From positions 1 to 64,000 of the forward strand of contig MWCY01000015.1 in assembly GCA_002070275.1 (NCBI GenBank): a DNA stretch of 64,000 bases, read 5' to 3'. This document shows, piece after piece, positions 6,465 to 56,839 of this stretch (positions are counted from its first letter, which is position 1; the number at the start of each line of letters is the position of its first letter). A model generated the notes under the pieces. That model had not been told where the DNA came from. It worked only from the letters and a program-made list of their open reading frames with translations, and ran no database searches. The translations under genes and the position numbers were made by a program. The stretch comes from Candidatus Hydrogenedentes bacterium ADurb.Bin170 (GTDB taxonomy: Bacteria; Hydrogenedentota; Hydrogenedentia; Hydrogenedentales; CAITNO01).

Positions 6465-7505
6465 CTATTTCTTGTAGATCTCGATCATGTCCTGCAGCGT
6501 CAACGGGGTGTAATCCGTGGCGTGACCGGCCTGGCCGAAGGCTTTCATGCGTGCCACATACACTTCATAAGCGGCTTCGCGGGCGGGCTTCAGATAGTCG
6601 CGCGGGTCGAATTTCGACGGAGACTCCACGAAGACCTTGCGGATGGCGCCCGTAATGGCGAGGCGGCTGTCCGTGTCCACGTTGATTTTGCGTACGCCAT
6701 GACGGATACCGTCCTGAATCTGCTCCACGGGAATGCCGAAGGCATCGGGCATGTTGCCGCCGTACTGGTTTATGATGTCGACCAGTTCTTTCGGAACCGA
6801 GCTGGAGCCGTGCATGACCATGTGACAGTTGGGCATACGGTCGTGGATTTCGTGAATGCGCTCCATGGCAAGAGTCGGCGGAAGCATCTCGCCTGTAACC
6901 GGATCTTTTCTGCCCGATTTATAGGCGCCGTGGCTCGTGCCGATGGCAACGGCGAGGGCGTCGAGCTGTGTTTTGGCAACGAAGTCTTCCGCCTGTGCCG
7001 GATCCGTCAGGTGATCCTGCACTTCCGCTTCGCTGAGCCCCGCACCGTGACCGTCTTCTATTCCGCCCAGACAGCCCAGTTCACCTTCAACCGTCACACC
7101 CAGAGGATGGGCATATTCAACGACGTCGCAGGTCACTTTCACGTTCTGTTCATAGCTGTTCGGCGTCTTGCCGTCTTCGGAAAGAGAGCCGTCCATCATG
7201 ACGGAGGTGAAGCCCAGCGCAATCGCTTCTTTGCAGGTTGCGAGGCTGTTGCCATGGTCAAGATGCATGGCGACAGGAATATGCGGATATTCTTCTGCTG
7301 CCGCTTCCATCAGCTTTTTCAGGTAAATCATTTTGCTGTATTTCAGCGCACCGCGGCTCGCCTGAATAATCACAGGGCTGTGCGTATCGTTCGCAGCCTG
7401 CATGATGGCCTGAATCTGTTCCATGTTGTTGACGTTGAACGCACCAACACCGTACCCGCCCTTGGCGGCTTCATCCAAAATCTGGCGCATGGGTACTAAT
7501 GGCAT
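6465..7505 (-). CDS. fba: Class II fructose-bisphosphate aldolase
   Basis: A 346-residue cytoplasmic enzyme that interconverts fructose-1,6-bisphosphate with dihydroxyacetone phosphate and glyceraldehyde-3-phosphate. It shows the zinc-binding HLDHGN motif (about residue 85), the VEGELG segment, GTSHGAYK, MHGSSSVP and the phosphate-binding NVDTDSR. Length and C-terminus resemble the CbbA/Calvin-cycle-type subfamily of class II aldolases. ATG 7505 follows an AAGGAGAG site; the longer open frame to 7586 lacks support. It is transcribed alone from the edge of the repeat block. Confidence 0.93.
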   Translation of the reverse strand: MPLVPMRQILDEAAKGGYGVGAFNVNNMEQIQAIMQAANDTHSPVIIQASRGALKYSKMIYLKKLMEAAAEEYPHIPVAMHLDHGNSLATCKEAIALGFTSVMMDGSLSEDGKTPNSYEQNVKVTCDVVEYAHPLGVTVEGELGCLGGIEDGHGAGLSEAEVQDHLTDPAQAEDFVAKTQLDALAVAIGTSHGAYKSGRKDPVTGEMLPPTLAMERIHEIHDRMPNCHMVMHGSSSVPKELVDIINQYGGNMPDAFGIPVEQIQDGIRHGVRKINVDTDSRLAITGAIRKVFVESPSKFDPRDYLKPAREAAYEVYVARMKAFGQAGHATDYTPLTLQDMIEIYKK

Positions 7506-7894
7506 TACACTTCTCTCCTTTTGAGTTATGCAGTAAGGTTCAGCCGGGCAGTCGATTAGCGCTCTCCGCCGGATGGCGCAGCGCACGAAACTGCTGGTCG
7601 GGATCGCATGCCCCGCTCAGAAATGAAATAAGAGAATCGCAGAAAGACGATCAACTTTAAACAAAAGTTTTTATCTCTCTGTATAAAGTCTACAGGATTT
7701 TACTGTTGCAGTTCAAATGCGGGTCTTCATTGGCCCTAGAGCGGAAGGAAGGGGAGAGGAGACAGAAAAGCGTGCCGGCAGAGATAAAAAGAGCCCTCTT
7801 ATGCCCTCTCTGTCCACTCTCTTTGTGTGGCTTCTAGCTCTTTTAAATAAAAGCAGTCCTTGCCCTGATTAAGATTCCTGCCTGCGCAGGAATG

Positions 7895-7967
7895 ACGCCG
7901 GGGGGTGGACGTAATGGCGACGTGCGCAGAGACGTCGGAGGGTGGACGTGACGGCGACGTGCGCAGG
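7895..7967. repeat. Two-unit copy of the 37/40-bp tandem repeat
   Basis: Two units beginning acgccgg (7895) and acgtcgg (7932), 37 bp apart, of the same family as the six-unit array at 9088-9312. They directly follow a REP-like palindrome and precede the 9-bp array at 8027. Confidence 0.8.
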
Positions 7968-8026
7968 AATCTTAATTCGGGTATGGGCGCCTTTGCTTCA
8001 CAGGACTGCATTCCACACCAAAGTGA

Positions 8027-8053
8027 GTGGACACGGTGGACACGGTGGACTGT
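8027..8053. repeat. 9-bp tandem repeat (gtggacacg), three units
   Basis: Two perfect gtggacacg units and a diverged third unit. This is the complement of the array at 289-315 and homologous to 9374-9400. Confidence 0.8.
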
Positions 8054-8255
8054 GCATTCGGTGTATGGCCTTAGCCTTATTTCCTACCTGAGACTTATAT
8101 GGGTTCCGCACCAAAATGCTCTGGCTCAAAACATACTATCCGCCCGCCTGAGAACACCAATCGACCTATTGGCAGGGGCGTGTGTGGTCTGTGATGTTGT
8201 GTGTATGTCGCGGGACGTATTTCCGATACAGATCCGAGTTTCAGTCTTCTTCATG

Positions 8256-9094
8256 ACCCGCTTGTGTGCCAATGCGGAGATTGGCGTTCCCAGGGGAAGA
8301 ACTGCCTTTCCTCGTCATTCCTCCTCTTCCCCCCGTCATTTCCACACTTCCCGTCATTCCTGCCTTTCCCCCGTCATTCCTGCCTTTCCCCCGTCATTCC
8401 TGCCTTTCCCCCGTCATTCCTGCGAAGGCAGGAATCTTAATCAGGGCATGGGCGCCTTTGATTTCATATCGCCCTGATCCACACCAAAGACTGAAGGACA
8501 CACAACTCGCCACATTTCCCGTATGAGATATGTCTTGACGGTATTCCCGCGTAGTTTTCGACTACGGTACGTCCCTCATAAAGAGCAACTCGCGTTAAGA
8601 TTCCTGCCTGCGCAGGAATGACGCCGGGGGGTGGACGTGACGGCGGCGTGTACAGGGATGACGGAGGGAGTATGTCGCAGGGCATATTTCCGCAGCGGAT
8701 CTGAGGGACTGCTTTCGTCATAACCCGCTTGTGTGCCAATGCGGAGATTGGCGTTCCCAGGGGAAGAACTGCCTTTCCTCGTCATTCCTCCTCTTCCCCC
8801 CGTCATTTCCACACTTCCCGTCATTCCTGCCTTTCCCCCGTCATTCCTGCCTTTCCCCCGTCATTCCTGCCTTTCCCCCGTCATTCCTGCGAAGGCAGGA
8901 ATCTTAATCAGGGCATGGGCGCCTTTGATTTCATATCGCCCTGATCCACACCAAAGACTGAAGGACACACAACTCGCCACATTTCCCGTATGAGATATGT
9001 CTTGACGGTATTCCCGCGTAGTTTTCGACTACGGTACGTCCCTCATAAAGAGCAACTCGCGTTAAGATTCCTGCCTGCGCAGGAATGACGCCGG
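8256..9094. repeat. Direct duplication: 372-bp exact repeat at a 467-bp offset
   Basis: Bases 8256-8627 and 8723-9094 appear identical by eye, including three internal 20-bp sub-units based on 'tgcctttcccccgtcattcc' in each copy. The offset is 467 bp throughout. The intervening 95 bases begin and end in diverged repeat sequence. The lack of differences suggests a recent duplication. Confidence 0.85.
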
Positions 9095-9312
9095 AGGGTG
9101 GACGTAATGGCGACGTGCGCAGAGACGCCGGGGGGTGGACGTAATGGCGACGTGCGCAGGAATGACGCCGGAGGGTGGACGTAATGGCGACGTGCGCAGG
9201 AATGACGCCGGAGGGTGGACGTAACGGCGGTGTGTGCAGAGACGCCGGAGGGTGGACGTAATGGCGACGTGCGCAGAGACGCCGGAGGGTGGACGTAACG
9301 GCGGTGTGTGCA
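9088..9312. repeat. Six-unit minisatellite with alternating 37- and 40-bp periods
   Basis: Units beginning 'acgccgg' start at 9088, 9125, 9165, 9205, 9242 and 9279, giving spacings of 37, 40, 40, 37 and 37. Length variants differ by joining through 'aga' or 'ggaatg'. Sequence variants carry either 'aatggcgacgtgcgc' or 'aacggcggtgtgtgc'. Units abut directly with no unique spacers, so this is not a CRISPR array. Confidence 0.85.
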
Positions 9313-9373
9313 GGAATCTTAATTCGGGTATGGGCGCCTTTGCTCCGCAGGACTGCGTTCCACACCAAAGTGA

Positions 9374-9400
9374 GTGGACAGAGTGGGCACAGTGGACTGT
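9374..9400. repeat. 9-bp tandem repeat (gtggacaga-like), three units
   Basis: Three diverged units, gtggacaga, gtgggcaca and gtggactgt, in the same position of the composite element as the array at 8027-8053. Confidence 0.7.
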
Positions 9401-9892
9401 GCATTCGGTGTATATCCTCAGCCTTATTTCCTACCTGAGACTTATATGGGTTCCGCACCAAAATGCTCTGGCTCAAAACATACTATCCGCCAGCCTGGGA
9501 ACGCCAATCTCTGTATTGGCAGGGGCGTGTGTGGTCTGTGATGTTGTGTGTATGTCGCGGGACGTATTTCCGATACAGATCCGAGTGACTGTCTTCTTCA
9601 TGACCCGTTTGTGTCGCAATGGGTCGCTTGGCGTTTCTGAACGTTCCGCAGGGCGCTCTAAAACATGCAGCGACTTTATTTAAGAGAAAAGGCTCTCTGG
9701 CATGTATTAAAGAGAAAAGTGTATCTGTTTCCTGTTGAAGTGGCCGCTCTGCTTGCTTTAAGCCCCGGTTCTGTGCTATCTTTTTCTTCTCAGGCAGAGC
9801 CTTCCCAAGGATGAGTTGTGCCTGTTGCTTGATGTGCCCTATCCGGGTCTTTTCTTTTTACAGCCCTGATTTACAAGAAAGATAGAACAAAC

Positions 9893-10627
9893 ATGTCCAC
9901 ACGCAAACCATTTGTAGCCGGCAATTGGAAAATGAATAATTTTGTCGCCGACGCTGTCAGTCTGGCAGAAGGTCTTAAAGCGCTGGTATCGGGCGTGGAC
10001 ACGGTAGATATTGCTGTTTGTCCGACCTATACGTCTCTGTATGCTGTCGGCAAGGTGCTTGCCGGATCCACGATTCAGCTGGGAGCACAGGATGCCTATG
10101 TGAAGGCAAGCGGTGCTTATACCGGCGAAATTTCGCCGCAGATGCTGCAGGATGTGGGCTGCACGTGGACAATCATCGGTCACAGCGAACGTCGCCATAT
10201 TCTGGGCGAAAGCGATGAATTTCTCAATGAAAAGCTGCGCTTTGCGCTGGCGAGCGGTCTGAAAGTCATGTTCTGCATCGGCGAGCTGCTGGAAGAGCGT
10301 AAAGGCGGCACCATGGAAGCGGTGCTTGAACGCCAGACCACGAAGGGACTGGACGGCCTGAGCGCTGATGTGGCGGCGGGCGTGGTGATTGCTTATGAAC
10401 CTGTCTGGGCGGACCAGGCGGAAGACGCCCACATTTTTGTGCGCGGTGTTGTTGAAAAAATGTTCGGCAAAGACTGTGCCGACCGGGTGCGTATTCAATA
10501 CGGTGGCAGCGTGAAGGCCGACAATGCGGCGGAACTCATTGCCCGTGAACATATTGACGGTTTCCTCGTGGGCGGAGCGGCCTTGAAAGCAGACAGTTTT
10601 GCCGCCATTATCAACGCCTGCAAATAA
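9893..10627 (+). CDS. tpiA: Triosephosphate isomerase lacking catalytic loop 6
   Basis: A 244-residue homologue of TpiA, which interconverts dihydroxyacetone phosphate and glyceraldehyde-3-phosphate. The catalytic set is present: N11 and K13 in NWKMN, H97 in GHSERR and E169 in YEPVW. Phosphate-site motifs YGGSV and VGGAAL are also kept. After EPVWA, however, the expected IGTGK-type flexible lid and the next few residues are absent. The chain runs directly into DQAEDAHIF, about nine residues short in frame (junction near 10412). The N- and C-termini are otherwise full length. The upstream ribosome binding site is weak. secG follows 71 bases later. Confidence 0.93.
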   Translation: MSTRKPFVAGNWKMNNFVADAVSLAEGLKALVSGVDTVDIAVCPTYTSLYAVGKVLAGSTIQLGAQDAYVKASGAYTGEISPQMLQDVGCTWTIIGHSERRHILGESDEFLNEKLRFALASGLKVMFCIGELLEERKGGTMEAVLERQTTKGLDGLSADVAAGVVIAYEPVWADQAEDAHIFVRGVVEKMFGKDCADRVRIQYGGSVKADNAAELIAREHIDGFLVGGAALKADSFAAIINACK

Positions 10628-10698
10628 CAGAATCAGAACCCCGGCACTATTCCGGTACCGGGCGGCCCATGAGCCAACTTCGCAAGGGAATGAACAGC

Positions 10699-11289
10699 AT
10701 GTTAAGTATTATCTTCAGCCTGAATACACTCTGGTGGTTGATCCTCCTCCTTTATATTCCGGCGTGTTTTGCTCTGATCATTATCGTGCTTCTTCAAAAA
10801 GGGAAGGGGCAGGGTCTGGCGGGTGCCTTTGGTATGGGCGGCGGCATGGATACGATTTTCGGTCCCCGTTCCTCCAAAAGCCTGCCTCAGAAAATAACCT
10901 ATGCCGGTGCGGCCGTGTTTATGGTTCTTGCCCTTGTCATGTCCATCCTGTCCGGAAAGGTCGGGAAAGCGGCAGCCCCCGAACTTGCTGAAGCACCGGT
11001 TCAGGCGTCTCTTGATGCGCTGTTTGATGGCAGCGCAGCAGAGGCCCCTGCGGATGCCTCGGAGGCCGCTGGCGGTATCACAGAAGTGACGGTGAATCCG
11101 GATACGCCTGCTGAAGGCGCTGTGGCAGCTCCGACGGAGACTGCTGAGGAAGCGGCAGCAGCAGAAGCGCCTGCGGAAGCAGCGGCCGAAACAGCACCTG
11201 CAGCGGCGGCAACAGCAGAAGCGCCTGCGGAGGCAGCAGTTGAAGAGGCTGGCGATAAAGAAGAAGCGGGCGGCGGGCAGGCTGAATAA
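10699..11289 (+). CDS. secG: Preprotein translocase subunit SecG with long Ala/Glu-rich tail
   Basis: A 196-residue protein. The first 80 or so residues are a normal SecG: two membrane helices (about 4-25 and 54-74) around the QKGKGQGLAGAFG loop, which assists SecYEG during export. The rest is a low-complexity tail of Ala, Glu, Pro and Thr (about 90-196), unusual for a protein that is often below 100 residues. ATG 10699 has an AAGGGA site; upstream in-frame starts at 10669 and 10690 lack one. It lies downstream of tpiA and is closed by a terminator. Confidence 0.88.
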   Translation: MLSIIFSLNTLWWLILLLYIPACFALIIIVLLQKGKGQGLAGAFGMGGGMDTIFGPRSSKSLPQKITYAGAAVFMVLALVMSILSGKVGKAAAPELAEAPVQASLDALFDGSAAEAPADASEAAGGITEVTVNPDTPAEGAVAAPTETAEEAAAAEAPAEAAAETAPAAAATAEAPAEAAVEEAGDKEEAGGGQAE

Positions 11290-50730: not shown

Positions 50731-51942
50731 TTATTTTTTCAGAATTTTTTGCACAGCCGGTGCGTCAATGAGGGTTGCTTCAGTCAACGTCCCGACGAGA
50801 GGGCGCGCATACTTGATGAACGCTTCGGTGACATCGTTGCCGGCAGCGTTGATATATTCGTCAGGCATTTCAATGGAGTCCCGGGCAACGGTGTCAAGGG
50901 CTGTCAGGAAATAGGAAATGCTGTAGTTGCCTGCGCGTTTCATGGCGACAGAACCGCTCTTCTGCTGTCCGATCGCATAACGTACGCCCATTTCGCCGAC
51001 GGTACGGGCTTCGACCTGATCGACTTCGCTCACACAGCCCAGGAAGCTGCGCTGCAGATAGCCGAGTGTATCCGCCCGGACGCGGGAAATCTTTGCTTCG
51101 TCCTTGATATATTTTGCGAGATGATCGCCCAGTGCGCCGCTGCCGGAAAGCTGGACATTTCCGTGGGCATCCTTTTCTCCGCCGGTAAATTTGGCAGCAA
51201 TGGGTTTGCCTGTTTCATCGACAATACCTTCAGAAACGGCGATAACACAGCGCCCATATTTTGCGTACACGTTCTCGACGTCATTTTTAAAGCGTTCAAG
51301 ATTGAAAGTGCGCTCGGGCAGATAAATAAGATGGGGGCCGTCGTCCTCATATTTGCGTCCGAGTGCTGCTGCAGCAGTCAGGAACCCGGCATGACGGCCC
51401 ATGACCACACCGATATATACGCCGGGAAGGGCGCGGTTGTCCAGATCGGCACCGGCAAAAGCCTGGGCAACAAATTTGGCGGCTGAGCCGTAACCCGGGC
51501 AATGATCCGTTACTTTCAGGTCGTTGTCGATAGTTTTGGGCACATGGATGACGTGCATCTCATAACCGGCATTGCTTGCCTCTTTGCTGACAGTATTACA
51601 GCTGTCGGCACTGTCATTTCCGCCGCAATAGAAGAAATAGCGGATGTCGTGGGCTTTGCAGATTTCGAAGATTTTTTTGCAGTAGGCGGCGTCGGGTTTG
51701 TCACGGGTGGAATAGAGGCCGGATGAGGGAGATGCAGCGAAGGCTTCCAGATTGGCGGTAGGCACATCGGTCAGATCGAGAAAGTTTTCATTGATAATGC
51801 CGTTAACGCCGTGACGGGCACCGTAGATGCGGGTCACTTCCGGATATTTACGTGCTTCCAGGACGACGCCGACGACGCTCTGGTTGATGACCGCGGTCGG
51901 TCCGCCACCCTGCGCAACTAAAACTTTACCTGTTAATTTCAT
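50731..51942 (-). CDS. pfp: Phosphofructokinase, probably pyrophosphate-dependent
   Basis: A 403-residue cytoplasmic enzyme phosphorylating fructose-6-phosphate to fructose-1,6-bisphosphate. It shows AQGGGPTAVINQS, YCGGNDSADSC, HVPKTIDNDL, GVVMGRHAGF and VIAVSEGI. The GGND in place of the GGDG/GGDD variants, with its overall length, favours the group of PPi-using or mixed-specificity enzymes; donor choice is inference. Start ATG has an AGGAGG site. It forms its own unit with a strong terminator. Confidence 0.9.
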   Translation of the reverse strand: MKLTGKVLVAQGGGPTAVINQSVVGVVLEARKYPEVTRIYGARHGVNGIINENFLDLTDVPTANLEAFAASPSSGLYSTRDKPDAAYCKKIFEICKAHDIRYFFYCGGNDSADSCNTVSKEASNAGYEMHVIHVPKTIDNDLKVTDHCPGYGSAAKFVAQAFAGADLDNRALPGVYIGVVMGRHAGFLTAAAALGRKYEDDGPHLIYLPERTFNLERFKNDVENVYAKYGRCVIAVSEGIVDETGKPIAAKFTGGEKDAHGNVQLSGSGALGDHLAKYIKDEAKISRVRADTLGYLQRSFLGCVSEVDQVEARTVGEMGVRYAIGQQKSGSVAMKRAGNYSISYFLTALDTVARDSIEMPDEYINAAGNDVTEAFIKYARPLVGTLTEATLIDAPAVQKILKK

Positions 51943-53708: not shown

Positions 53709-56207
53709 GTGAGAACTCCTGTTCTGGTGCAGAAAAGGGCGTGGTTTTTTCTGCTGACAGTTCTGCTGTCACTGCATGCATCCGGCAGCCTGGAAGACAC
53801 TGTGTGGCAGCGTGCGGCTGAAAACGGAGAGATTGCCCGCGAGGCGCTGGTAAAGTCGCTTCGTTTTGTGCATGCCTGGCTGCAGACTGCCGACCCGGAG
53901 ACGGGGCTTATTCCGAGGAATCTCAAGGACTCGCCGTATTGGAATGCCAAAGATTCCGCTGCAGACAACTACCCCTTCATGGTGCTGACCACCTATTTCA
54001 CTGACCGCACCCTTTTTGACGGCAGAATGAAAACAATGCTTGAGACAGAGCAGCGCCTGTGCAACCGCCTCGGCAGGCTTCCCGATGACTGGCTCTTTGA
54101 GCCGCAGGGTTTTCGTGTGCAGGAGGTGCGGTCCGACGACCTCATTTTTGGTGCAAGTGAATATATGAAGGACGGGTTGATCCCGGTGACTGAGCTGCTG
54201 GGTCCCAGCCCGTGGTCGGAACGTATGTTGGGTATGCTGGAAGACCTGTGGGCATATGGAGCGGTGGAAACGGAAATCGGACGTCTGCCTTCCACGTCCC
54301 ATGAGGTGGCGGGGAATCTGCTTCAGCTGTGCAGCCGTATCTACTGGATGACGGGCGAGGAGATTCACCGCAGGCATGTGTTTCAGCTGGGCGACTACTT
54401 TTTCCTGCATCATCTTCCGACGGAAACAGAGCGCCTCCAGTTGGACGATCACGGCTGTGAAGTGATTAATGGACTGTCGGAGGCGTATTTTGTGGCGGCA
54501 AAGACCGATCCGGAAAAACATGCGCAGTGGCGCAAGCCGATGCACGCCATGCTTGACCGTATTCTGGAAACAGCCCGGGATGAAAATGGTCTGCTCTATG
54601 ACCTGATTAATCCGAAAACAGGCGAAATTAAAAGCCGGGAGCTGACGGATAACTGGGGGTACAATTATAATGCTTTTGCAGTTGTGGCAGAGGTGGATGG
54701 CGAAGAGCGGTATGCGGAGGCGGTGCGTCATGTGCTGAGCAATTTGCCTGCCGTGAAAGACTACCGATGGGAATACGGAAGTGCCGACGGTTATGCGGAT
54801 TCATTGGAGGGCGGACTCAATCTGCTGAATCGTTATCCTGTAGCCGAGGCGGCGGAATGGGCGGATTATACGGCGCGAATTCTGCTGGACAAGCCGCGGG
54901 ATACAGGCATTGTTGAAGGATGGCACGGCGACGGTAATTTTGCACGCACTGCACTGATGTATGCTTTCTGGAAAAGCCAGGGCGCCTGGCTGCATCCGTG
55001 GCGCAATGATCTGCGTCTGGGTGCTGTGTCGCCGGAACCGGGAACGTGGTGCTTTCATATTGCTTCAGACTGGCACTGGCAGGGCGCAGTAAACTTTGAC
55101 CTGCCCCGGCATGCGGTCTATCTGCACATGCCCGAAGATTATCCCCGCCTCAATCAGTTTCCGGAATGGTTCGTGATCCGGGAAGATCAGCAGTATGCCC
55201 TGCAGGTGGATGATAATCCGGTGCTGTACCTGCGCGGGAAAGACCTGTCTTCTCTGCCGCTCCGGCTGACCGGGGACAAGCCGCGCCGGATCATTCTCCG
55301 GGAAAACGCCGCGGCCCCTGCTGCGCCGCCCGTACCGACAGAATCCGTTCAGTCGTTTACAGAATGGCAGCAGGAAACACGCAAAGCCCTTTTTGAAGTG
55401 CTGCGTATTACCGATCTGACGGAGGGTTCCGGGCTTCCGCTTGAGGCAGCGCCGGAGGTGCGTACGGAAAAGGACGGATTTGTGCTTTGTGAGGTGGAGA
55501 TTCAGGGACTGCCGGGGTATCGCCTGCCTGCCGTGCTGGGACTGCCTGCCGGGGAGGGACCGTTTCCCGCAGTTGTCTGTATTCACGGGCACGGTGACAC
55601 GCGCTATTCTGTTTTTGAAGAAAAACCGGAGTCGGCATACAAAGGGATAGGTGCCCGGCTGGCAAAGGCGGGCTATGTTACGATGGCTGTGGATGTGGGC
55701 GGCCATGAAGCGCTGGAAGTGAGCCGGGAGCTCATGGGTGAGCGCTTGTGGAATTTGATGCGCTGCGTTGATTACCTGACTTCTCTCAAAGTGGTGGATC
55801 CGAAGCGTATAGGCTGCGCCGGACTTTCTCTGGGCGGCGAGATGTCCTTGTGGCTTGCCGCTACGGATACGCGTATCCGTGCGGCGGTAAGCGGCGGCTT
55901 TCTGACATTGATGGATCAGATGGAACAGAACCACTGTATGTGCTGGAAATTTCCCGGGCTGCGGTCGCTGGTCGACTATCCGGGCCTGGCATCGCTGGCA
56001 GCGCCCCGTTCCCTGCAGTTTCAAAACGGTATGAAAGAGCCGGATAACCAGTTTCCGCCCTGGCTTGCCCGCCTTGCCTTCCGGCAGATTCAACCGGCTT
56101 ATGCCTGTCTGGATGCTTCGGACAGACTCTTTCTGCATGTACACCCGGGTGGCCATGAACTGGATTACTACGGGTTGCTCCGCTTTTTTGATACACATTT
56201 GAAATGA
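53709..56207 (+). CDS. Fusion of an alpha-toroid glycosidase-like domain and an acyl esterase
   Basis: An 832-residue protein. GTG 53709 has an AAGGAGAG site and starts with a hydrophobic segment that looks like a signal or anchor (about 8-25). Residues about 30-450 have the alternating helix pattern of an (alpha/alpha)6 toroid (KSLRFVHAWLQTADPETGLIPRN broken by loops, NWGYNYNAFAVVAE, DGYADSLEGGLNLLNRYP). Residues about 560-832 are an alpha/beta hydrolase of the acetyl-xylan-esterase/dienelactone type. That domain has CIHGHGDTRYS, MAVDVGGHEAL, the nucleophile motif GLSLGGE and the final His in HPGGHELDYY. It may remove both sugars and acyl groups from a polysaccharide; this is inference. Confidence 0.8.
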   Translation: MRTPVLVQKRAWFFLLTVLLSLHASGSLEDTVWQRAAENGEIAREALVKSLRFVHAWLQTADPETGLIPRNLKDSPYWNAKDSAADNYPFMVLTTYFTDRTLFDGRMKTMLETEQRLCNRLGRLPDDWLFEPQGFRVQEVRSDDLIFGASEYMKDGLIPVTELLGPSPWSERMLGMLEDLWAYGAVETEIGRLPSTSHEVAGNLLQLCSRIYWMTGEEIHRRHVFQLGDYFFLHHLPTETERLQLDDHGCEVINGLSEAYFVAAKTDPEKHAQWRKPMHAMLDRILETARDENGLLYDLINPKTGEIKSRELTDNWGYNYNAFAVVAEVDGEERYAEAVRHVLSNLPAVKDYRWEYGSADGYADSLEGGLNLLNRYPVAEAAEWADYTARILLDKPRDTGIVEGWHGDGNFARTALMYAFWKSQGAWLHPWRNDLRLGAVSPEPGTWCFHIASDWHWQGAVNFDLPRHAVYLHMPEDYPRLNQFPEWFVIREDQQYALQVDDNPVLYLRGKDLSSLPLRLTGDKPRRIILRENAAAPAAPPVPTESVQSFTEWQQETRKALFEVLRITDLTEGSGLPLEAAPEVRTEKDGFVLCEVEIQGLPGYRLPAVLGLPAGEGPFPAVVCIHGHGDTRYSVFEEKPESAYKGIGARLAKAGYVTMAVDVGGHEALEVSRELMGERLWNLMRCVDYLTSLKVVDPKRIGCAGLSLGGEMSLWLAATDTRIRAAVSGGFLTLMDQMEQNHCMCWKFPGLRSLVDYPGLASLAAPRSLQFQNGMKEPDNQFPPWLARLAFRQIQPAYACLDASDRLFLHVHPGGHELDYYGLLRFFDTHLK

Positions 56208-56236
56208 ATTACGGGGGCTTCATCAAAGGAGGAGTT

Positions 56237-56839
56237 ATGATTGAACGTATTGATCATGTTGCTGTGGCTGTAAAAGATCACGATGCCGCCCTGCAGTTTT
56301 TTCGGGATGTGCTGGGAGCGGTTCCCGGCGAGAAATTTAAAGCCTCCGACAGAAATTTTTACTGGCAGACGCTGGCGTTGGGTGATCTGTCCCGCCTGGA
56401 GCTGATTTCTCCATCAGGCCCGGACAGCTTTCTTGATGGATTTCTGGCGAAAAAGGATGGCGGAGTTCATCATATAACGCTTCAGACGCCGAATCTTGAG
56501 GCAATGCTTAAAAAACTGGAAGCGCACGGTGTTCCTTACTTTGGCAAACATGCCTATCCCGATGGAAGCTGGAAGGAAGTCTTCGTTCATCCGAAGGACG
56601 CCTTCGGGGTGCTCGTGCAAATCTCGGAATTTGACGCGGAATACTGGATGGTGCCGGACGCTAAAATGCCGGAAGGCGTGCGTTTTCAAGTAGCGGCTGA
56701 AGAAAAGGGAGTTACGTTGACTTTTGCTCACCCGGGTGGGGGGAAAGTCTGTGTGGAGTGCAGCAGAGAAGAAGTAAAAGCGCTGGCAGAGCAAATCGAG
56801 AAAGCACTGGCAGGTAAAAATAAAAAAGCAGATGAATGA
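56237..56839 (+). CDS. VOC-superfamily (glyoxalase-fold) protein, methylmalonyl-CoA epimerase-like
   Basis: A 200-residue soluble protein. Its first 130 residues form a vicinal-oxygen-chelate module: IERIDHVAVAVKDHDAALQFFRDVLG, LELISPSG, GVHHITLQTPNLEAMLKKLEAHGV and a C-terminal FVHPKDAFGVLVQI. Metal ligands of the epimerase type (His near 6, His near 77, Glu/Gln near 125) are plausible. The last 60 residues are an extra tail ending in lysines, longer than classical epimerases. ATG 56237 follows AAAGGAGG. It is coupled closely to the toroid-esterase gene. Confidence 0.78.
   Translation: MIERIDHVAVAVKDHDAALQFFRDVLGAVPGEKFKASDRNFYWQTLALGDLSRLELISPSGPDSFLDGFLAKKDGGVHHITLQTPNLEAMLKKLEAHGVPYFGKHAYPDGSWKEVFVHPKDAFGVLVQISEFDAEYWMVPDAKMPEGVRFQVAAEEKGVTLTFAHPGGGKVCVECSREEVKALAEQIEKALAGKNKKADE

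Follow-up and report, generated by a model that had tools for sequence, protein, structure and literature searches.

The tpiA gene of the window, the whole 64,000-nucleotide stretch of DNA analysed here, encodes a triosephosphate isomerase (TIM) from which the “lid” (loop 6) is absent through an in-frame gap of 27 nt. Comparison at the sequence level indicates that this absence belongs to one genome, and a lidless TIM as an established enzyme lineage is excluded. Two origins are left for the absence, a gap of the assembly or a crippling deletion that is very recent. The leading explanation, given about an even chance, is a local loss of 27 nt in assembly or consensus, the living cell most probably having an ordinary lidded TIM. 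The window lies on contig C15 of a 3.5 Mb genome (164 contigs, 96% complete), the nearest relatives of which are MAGs of Hydrogenedentota.

The tpiA gene and its nine-residue gap

The gene is located at 9893..10627 on the forward strand, is present in a single copy and encodes 244 amino acids. Its product scores 170.3 bits against the curated profile TIGR00419 (cut-off 130.6) and 269 bits against PF00121 (cut-off 20.1), of which it is the sole match genome-wide, and the PDB sequence matches listed are TIMs only. At the junction the protein reads EPVWA followed directly by DQAEDAH, the reading frame containing VVIAYEPVWADQAEDAHIFVRG. At that place the TIM of the nearest genome, the same-genus sister Candidatus Hydrogenedens sp. 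AS10tlH2TH_339 (JAAYJV010000004.1, G001), reads EPVWA-IGTGETATP-DQAEDAH, and alignment of the two (locus L003/L119) requires one 27-nt in-frame gap. It should be noted that the gap (10409..10411, forward strand) can be set after position 10409 or 10410 equally well, one C being shared, and that the sister carries CATCGGCACGGGCGAAACAGCCACACC there, encoding IGTGETATP. The residues absent are 170-178 in chicken/yeast numbering. The tip of loop 6 in TIM is formed by 169-AIGTG-173, with hinges at 166-168 and 174-176 (PMC12874384). The window TIM loses the rest of this tip, the whole C-terminal hinge and two residues beyond, and the loop 6 lid of AIGTG with both hinges is not found in it. The N-terminal hinge and the catalytic Glu are retained at 10394..10411 (forward strand; TAT GAA CCT GTC TGG GCG, Y168 E169 P170 V171 W172 A173), and the start of helix α6 (DQAEDAHIFVRGVVEKMF, 10412..10465, forward strand) is fused directly to A173 in the AlphaFold2 model. 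The YGGS loop 7, partner of the absent lid, is intact at 10499..10510 on the same strand, the YGGS and GGAAL phosphate loops are both kept, and the catalytic residues N11 and K13 (loop 1), H97 and E99 (GHSERR) and E169 are all present. The original prediction, of about nine residues (27 bases) missing in frame after the catalytic Glu169 with the remaining active site kept, was borne out, the loss against the sister being exactly nine residues and 27 nt. The window and its source genome are 100% identical at the gap, so it is not a copying error in the window.

The sister TIM is 92% identical to the window TIM outside the gap, has the same start and is followed by secG and murA downstream; unlike the window TIM, it has the complete lid. 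When 88 distinct full-length TIMs were aligned, the loop positions I, G, T, G and A were invariant in the sequences other than the window TIM (87/87), which showed no further change at columns conserved at ≥90%. The lid is kept at every other locus with a readable motif. An intact-lid DNA pattern was found in 61 of 68 Hydrogenedentota genomes; the seven lacking it are the window genome, a genome of the same family with a contig break at the lid (G013), three members of genus g4 and two genomes that are incomplete, neither these two nor the g4 genomes having a detectable TIM. The short-junction DNA pattern occurs in 1/68 genomes of the phylum, namely the window genome. No second genome with the same short loop was observed among the 68, the same junction was not found on viral contigs, and a targeted literature search returned no report of a naturally lidless TIM by title or abstract. 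The presence of the full loop in all related genomes had been named originally as a refuting observation, and this is the outcome: all relatives with a readable gene keep the lid, which removes the reading of a lidless TIM that evolved as a settled trait.

Between the window and sister genes dN is 0.044 and dS 0.91 (dN/dS ~0.05), and the lineage-specific amino-acid changes of the two TIMs number 3 and 2, a balance comparable to those of murA, hisD and hisC. As read from these substitutions, the rest of tpiA is under strong purifying selection. A gene long useless or re-purposed would show more changes; the low dN/dS and the absence of any other lost conserved site thus point to a loss that is very recent compared with the age of the genus split, or that is not in the living cell. 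Gene decay was rejected, the other conserved sites being intact and dN/dS low.

Metabolic setting

A class II fructose-bisphosphate aldolase is encoded on the reverse strand at 6465..7586 (start probably near 7508; TIGR00167 309.9 bits, cut-off 215.6), and a diphosphate-dependent phosphofructokinase (PPi-PFK) on the same strand at 50731..51942 (NF010675 475.3 bits, cut-off 273). Phosphoglycerate kinase (PGK) and KDPG aldolase are also present in the window genome. The aldolase yields DHAP and GAP, which creates the need for TIM, and where PPi-PFK, this aldolase and PGK occur with no other TIM, such a need would be expected. A secG-like gene (10669..11289, forward strand; named from sequence and position) is the usual tpi neighbour in the relatives checked, and the gene order tpi-secG-murA-hisD is the same in the window genome and its relatives.

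Another TIM had been suggested as a way out, and none was found in the window genome (96% complete) by profile or lid-pattern search. Methylglyoxal synthase (TIGR00160), the usual bypass, was found neither in the window genome nor in any of the 68 Hydrogenedentota genomes, and the sole glyoxalase-family gene found is methylmalonyl-CoA-epimerase-like. This gene, at 56204-56839, scores 86.7 bits against TIGR03081, below the cut-off of 114.95, and its product has a C-terminal extension of ~70 residues. E. coli without TIM displays serious growth defects, with DHAP diverted via methylglyoxal synthase (PMC13010800). With a single TIM and no methylglyoxal synthase bypass, a nearly dead TIM would be costly here. 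No TIM was detected by protein, profile or lid-pattern search in the three g4 genomes (G004, G009 and G014; 92, 82 and 82% complete), which belong to the same family, and this suggests a possible loss of tpiA across the whole genus. If that loss is true, the family may be able to do without TIM.

Origin of the gap

A loss during assembly would proceed as follows. The word coding for EPVWAIGTG is among the most conserved in tpiA, and different species of one community can share it. Short-read assemblers can meet such a shared word as an ambiguous repeat, and in the window assembly the flanks would have been joined without it. We infer that the junction is then absent from the DNA of the cell. 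Sharing of 21-mers computed over 45 distinct relatives places the EPVWAIGTG stretch among the most shared positions of tpiA (up to 33/990 pairs, gene mean 3.3). In G013, tpi is split exactly at the lid over contigs C396 (L231, ending in ...GTGATCGCCTA) and C446 (L232, beginning with ACCGCATCGCCC, also written ACCGCATCG); the contigs do not overlap, and ~33 nt for about YEPVWAIGTGE are missing between them, in a single case. MAG contigs can therefore lose the conserved loop-6 word, in G013 as a break and not as a seamless join, and the word is possibly special for assemblers; a single break in a second genome may also be due to chance.

The gap survey set 864 kb of the window genome against 1.0 Mb from the sister and covered 112 orthologous ORFs with 41,313 aligned residues. 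Apart from the TIM gap, no clean internal deletion of at least 5 residues was seen in a well-conserved stretch, and the only other clean gap comprises 4 residues in a Gly-rich repeat. Systematic in-frame deletions in the window assembly were rejected, the TIM gap being isolated among the 112 genes. An assembly loss is favoured by the restriction of the gap to one genome, by this isolation and by a gene that otherwise looks fully functional, all of which are shown, by a protein that appears fully constrained until very recently, or still, and by the need for TIM expected of such a metabolism. Against it, a seamless join needs junction-making reads or gap-closing, and graph ambiguity alone would give a break. 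Furthermore, the window is free of N, an exact repeat of 372 bp lying 1-2 kb upstream of tpiA is resolved and no comparable deletion occurs in other genes; the assembly of the window genome is generally good. That repeat lies within 7822-9541, between fba and tpi, where direct and inverted repeats form a nested block; the 372-bp copies are 467 bp apart and 300-bp copies 1347 bp apart, with arms TTAAGATTCCTGCCTGCGCAGGAATGACG. These repeats look like mobile or REP-type elements.

A real and very recent 27-bp deletion in the strain is a serious, if somewhat doubtful, alternative. It would give a near-null allele whose barrel folds while the phosphate-gripping lid is gone. Isomerisation should be 10^5-10^6 times slower, with the enediolate released to methylglyoxal, and the near-TIM-deficient cell would use substrates or routes without DHAP/GAP interconversion. 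A junction that is clean and in frame, on a contig of good quality elsewhere, and the barrel kept in the AlphaFold2 model (mean pLDDT 93.6, TM-score 0.96 to 4y96) agree with such an event. So does the engineered variant L6DM, in which the smaller removal of 170-173 decreases kcat/Km 10^6-fold and kcat 10^5-fold and favours the production of methylglyoxal (reviewed in PMC12874384, where Pompliano et al. 1990 is also cited for the flexible loop of TIM). The KDPG aldolase and the g4 genomes lacking a detectable TIM are likewise in keeping with a cell that may dispense with the enzyme. However, selection is not relaxed in the rest of tpiA, the methylglyoxal synthase bypass is absent, and tpiA knockouts of E. 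coli show the growth defects described above (PMC13010800). No direct repeat or strong hairpin that could promote the loss was found at the tpiA site. DNA fold z-scores at the deletion are 0.33 and 0.23, and microhomology, given the invariant residues, reaches at most 2 nt. A slippage hot spot is unsupported by these values.

It is unlikely that a natural TIM without loop 6 supports metabolism here, or that a free-living bacterium tolerates a near-dead TIM leaking methylglyoxal, within a wider loss of TIM in the family. A working lidless TIM, whose active site would be screened by other loops, by the dimer partner or by a binding protein and whose shortened loop would be adaptive, is very improbable. 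In its favour, none of the catalytic residues is lost, loops 7 and 8 remain and the predicted fold is intact, but no compensating change at conserved positions and no accelerated evolution are observed, no relative shares the trait (junction pattern in 1/68 genomes), and engineered lid deletions nearly abolish activity. Least credible of all, leaving aside a small remainder for other causes, is a second, normal TIM hidden in the 4% of the genome that is not assembled, with the window copy as a decaying paralogue: a 96% complete genome in 164 contigs leaves some room for it, but 53 of 55 genomes with a match have one TIM, the other two holding one gene in two pieces, and the window tpiA occupies the usual tpi-secG-murA-hisD position and is not decaying. 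Of the three ways out originally offered, a deletion artefact therefore remains, together with a recent loss, while the second TIM was not found and the lidless trait is unshared.

If the gap is an artefact, as in the preferred reading of an assembly loss, highly conserved active-site words can drop out of MAG assemblies, and a catalytic motif that is missing from only one MAG should not be taken for biology without reads. If the deletion were real and the enzyme worked, it would contradict several decades of studies that trace the catalytic power of TIM to the lid.

Predicted structure and comparison with known TIMs

AlphaFold insensitivity to such changes should be considered when the models are read. 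The window TIM was modelled with a mean pLDDT of 93.6 (48 sequences) and the sister TIM with 95.0 (47 sequences). In the window model the barrel is kept, with a strand at 165-168 and then a helix from 176, and in the sister model helix 6 runs from 182. Helix 6 is predicted to start at the third residue of DQAEDAH in the window and at the preceding Pro in the sister. Strand 6 and helix 6 are bridged in the window model by the unwound helix start, so the chain can physically close. The model suggests no more than that the fold can accommodate the gap.

Among solved structures, the TIM of Gemmata obscuriglobus (4y96) is the closest, with a TM-score of 0.96 and 49% identity in the structural alignment. 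The window TIM and 4y96 are alike in fold, in length outside loop 6, in the catalytic Lys, His and Glu, in the YGGS loop 7 and in the GG loop 8; unlike 4y96, the window TIM lacks residues 170-178 (IGTGETATP). In L6DM, as in the window TIM, Ala169 is followed directly by a residue from past the tip of the loop, and the phosphate contact of Gly171 is lost. L6DM is a laboratory construct with 4 residues gone, whereas 9 are gone from the window TIM, including the C-terminal hinge 174-176. Since L6DM is nearly inactive and the window deletion is larger, the window protein as written should be almost inactive, and by analogy its isomerase activity would be expected to be decreased 10^5-fold or more.
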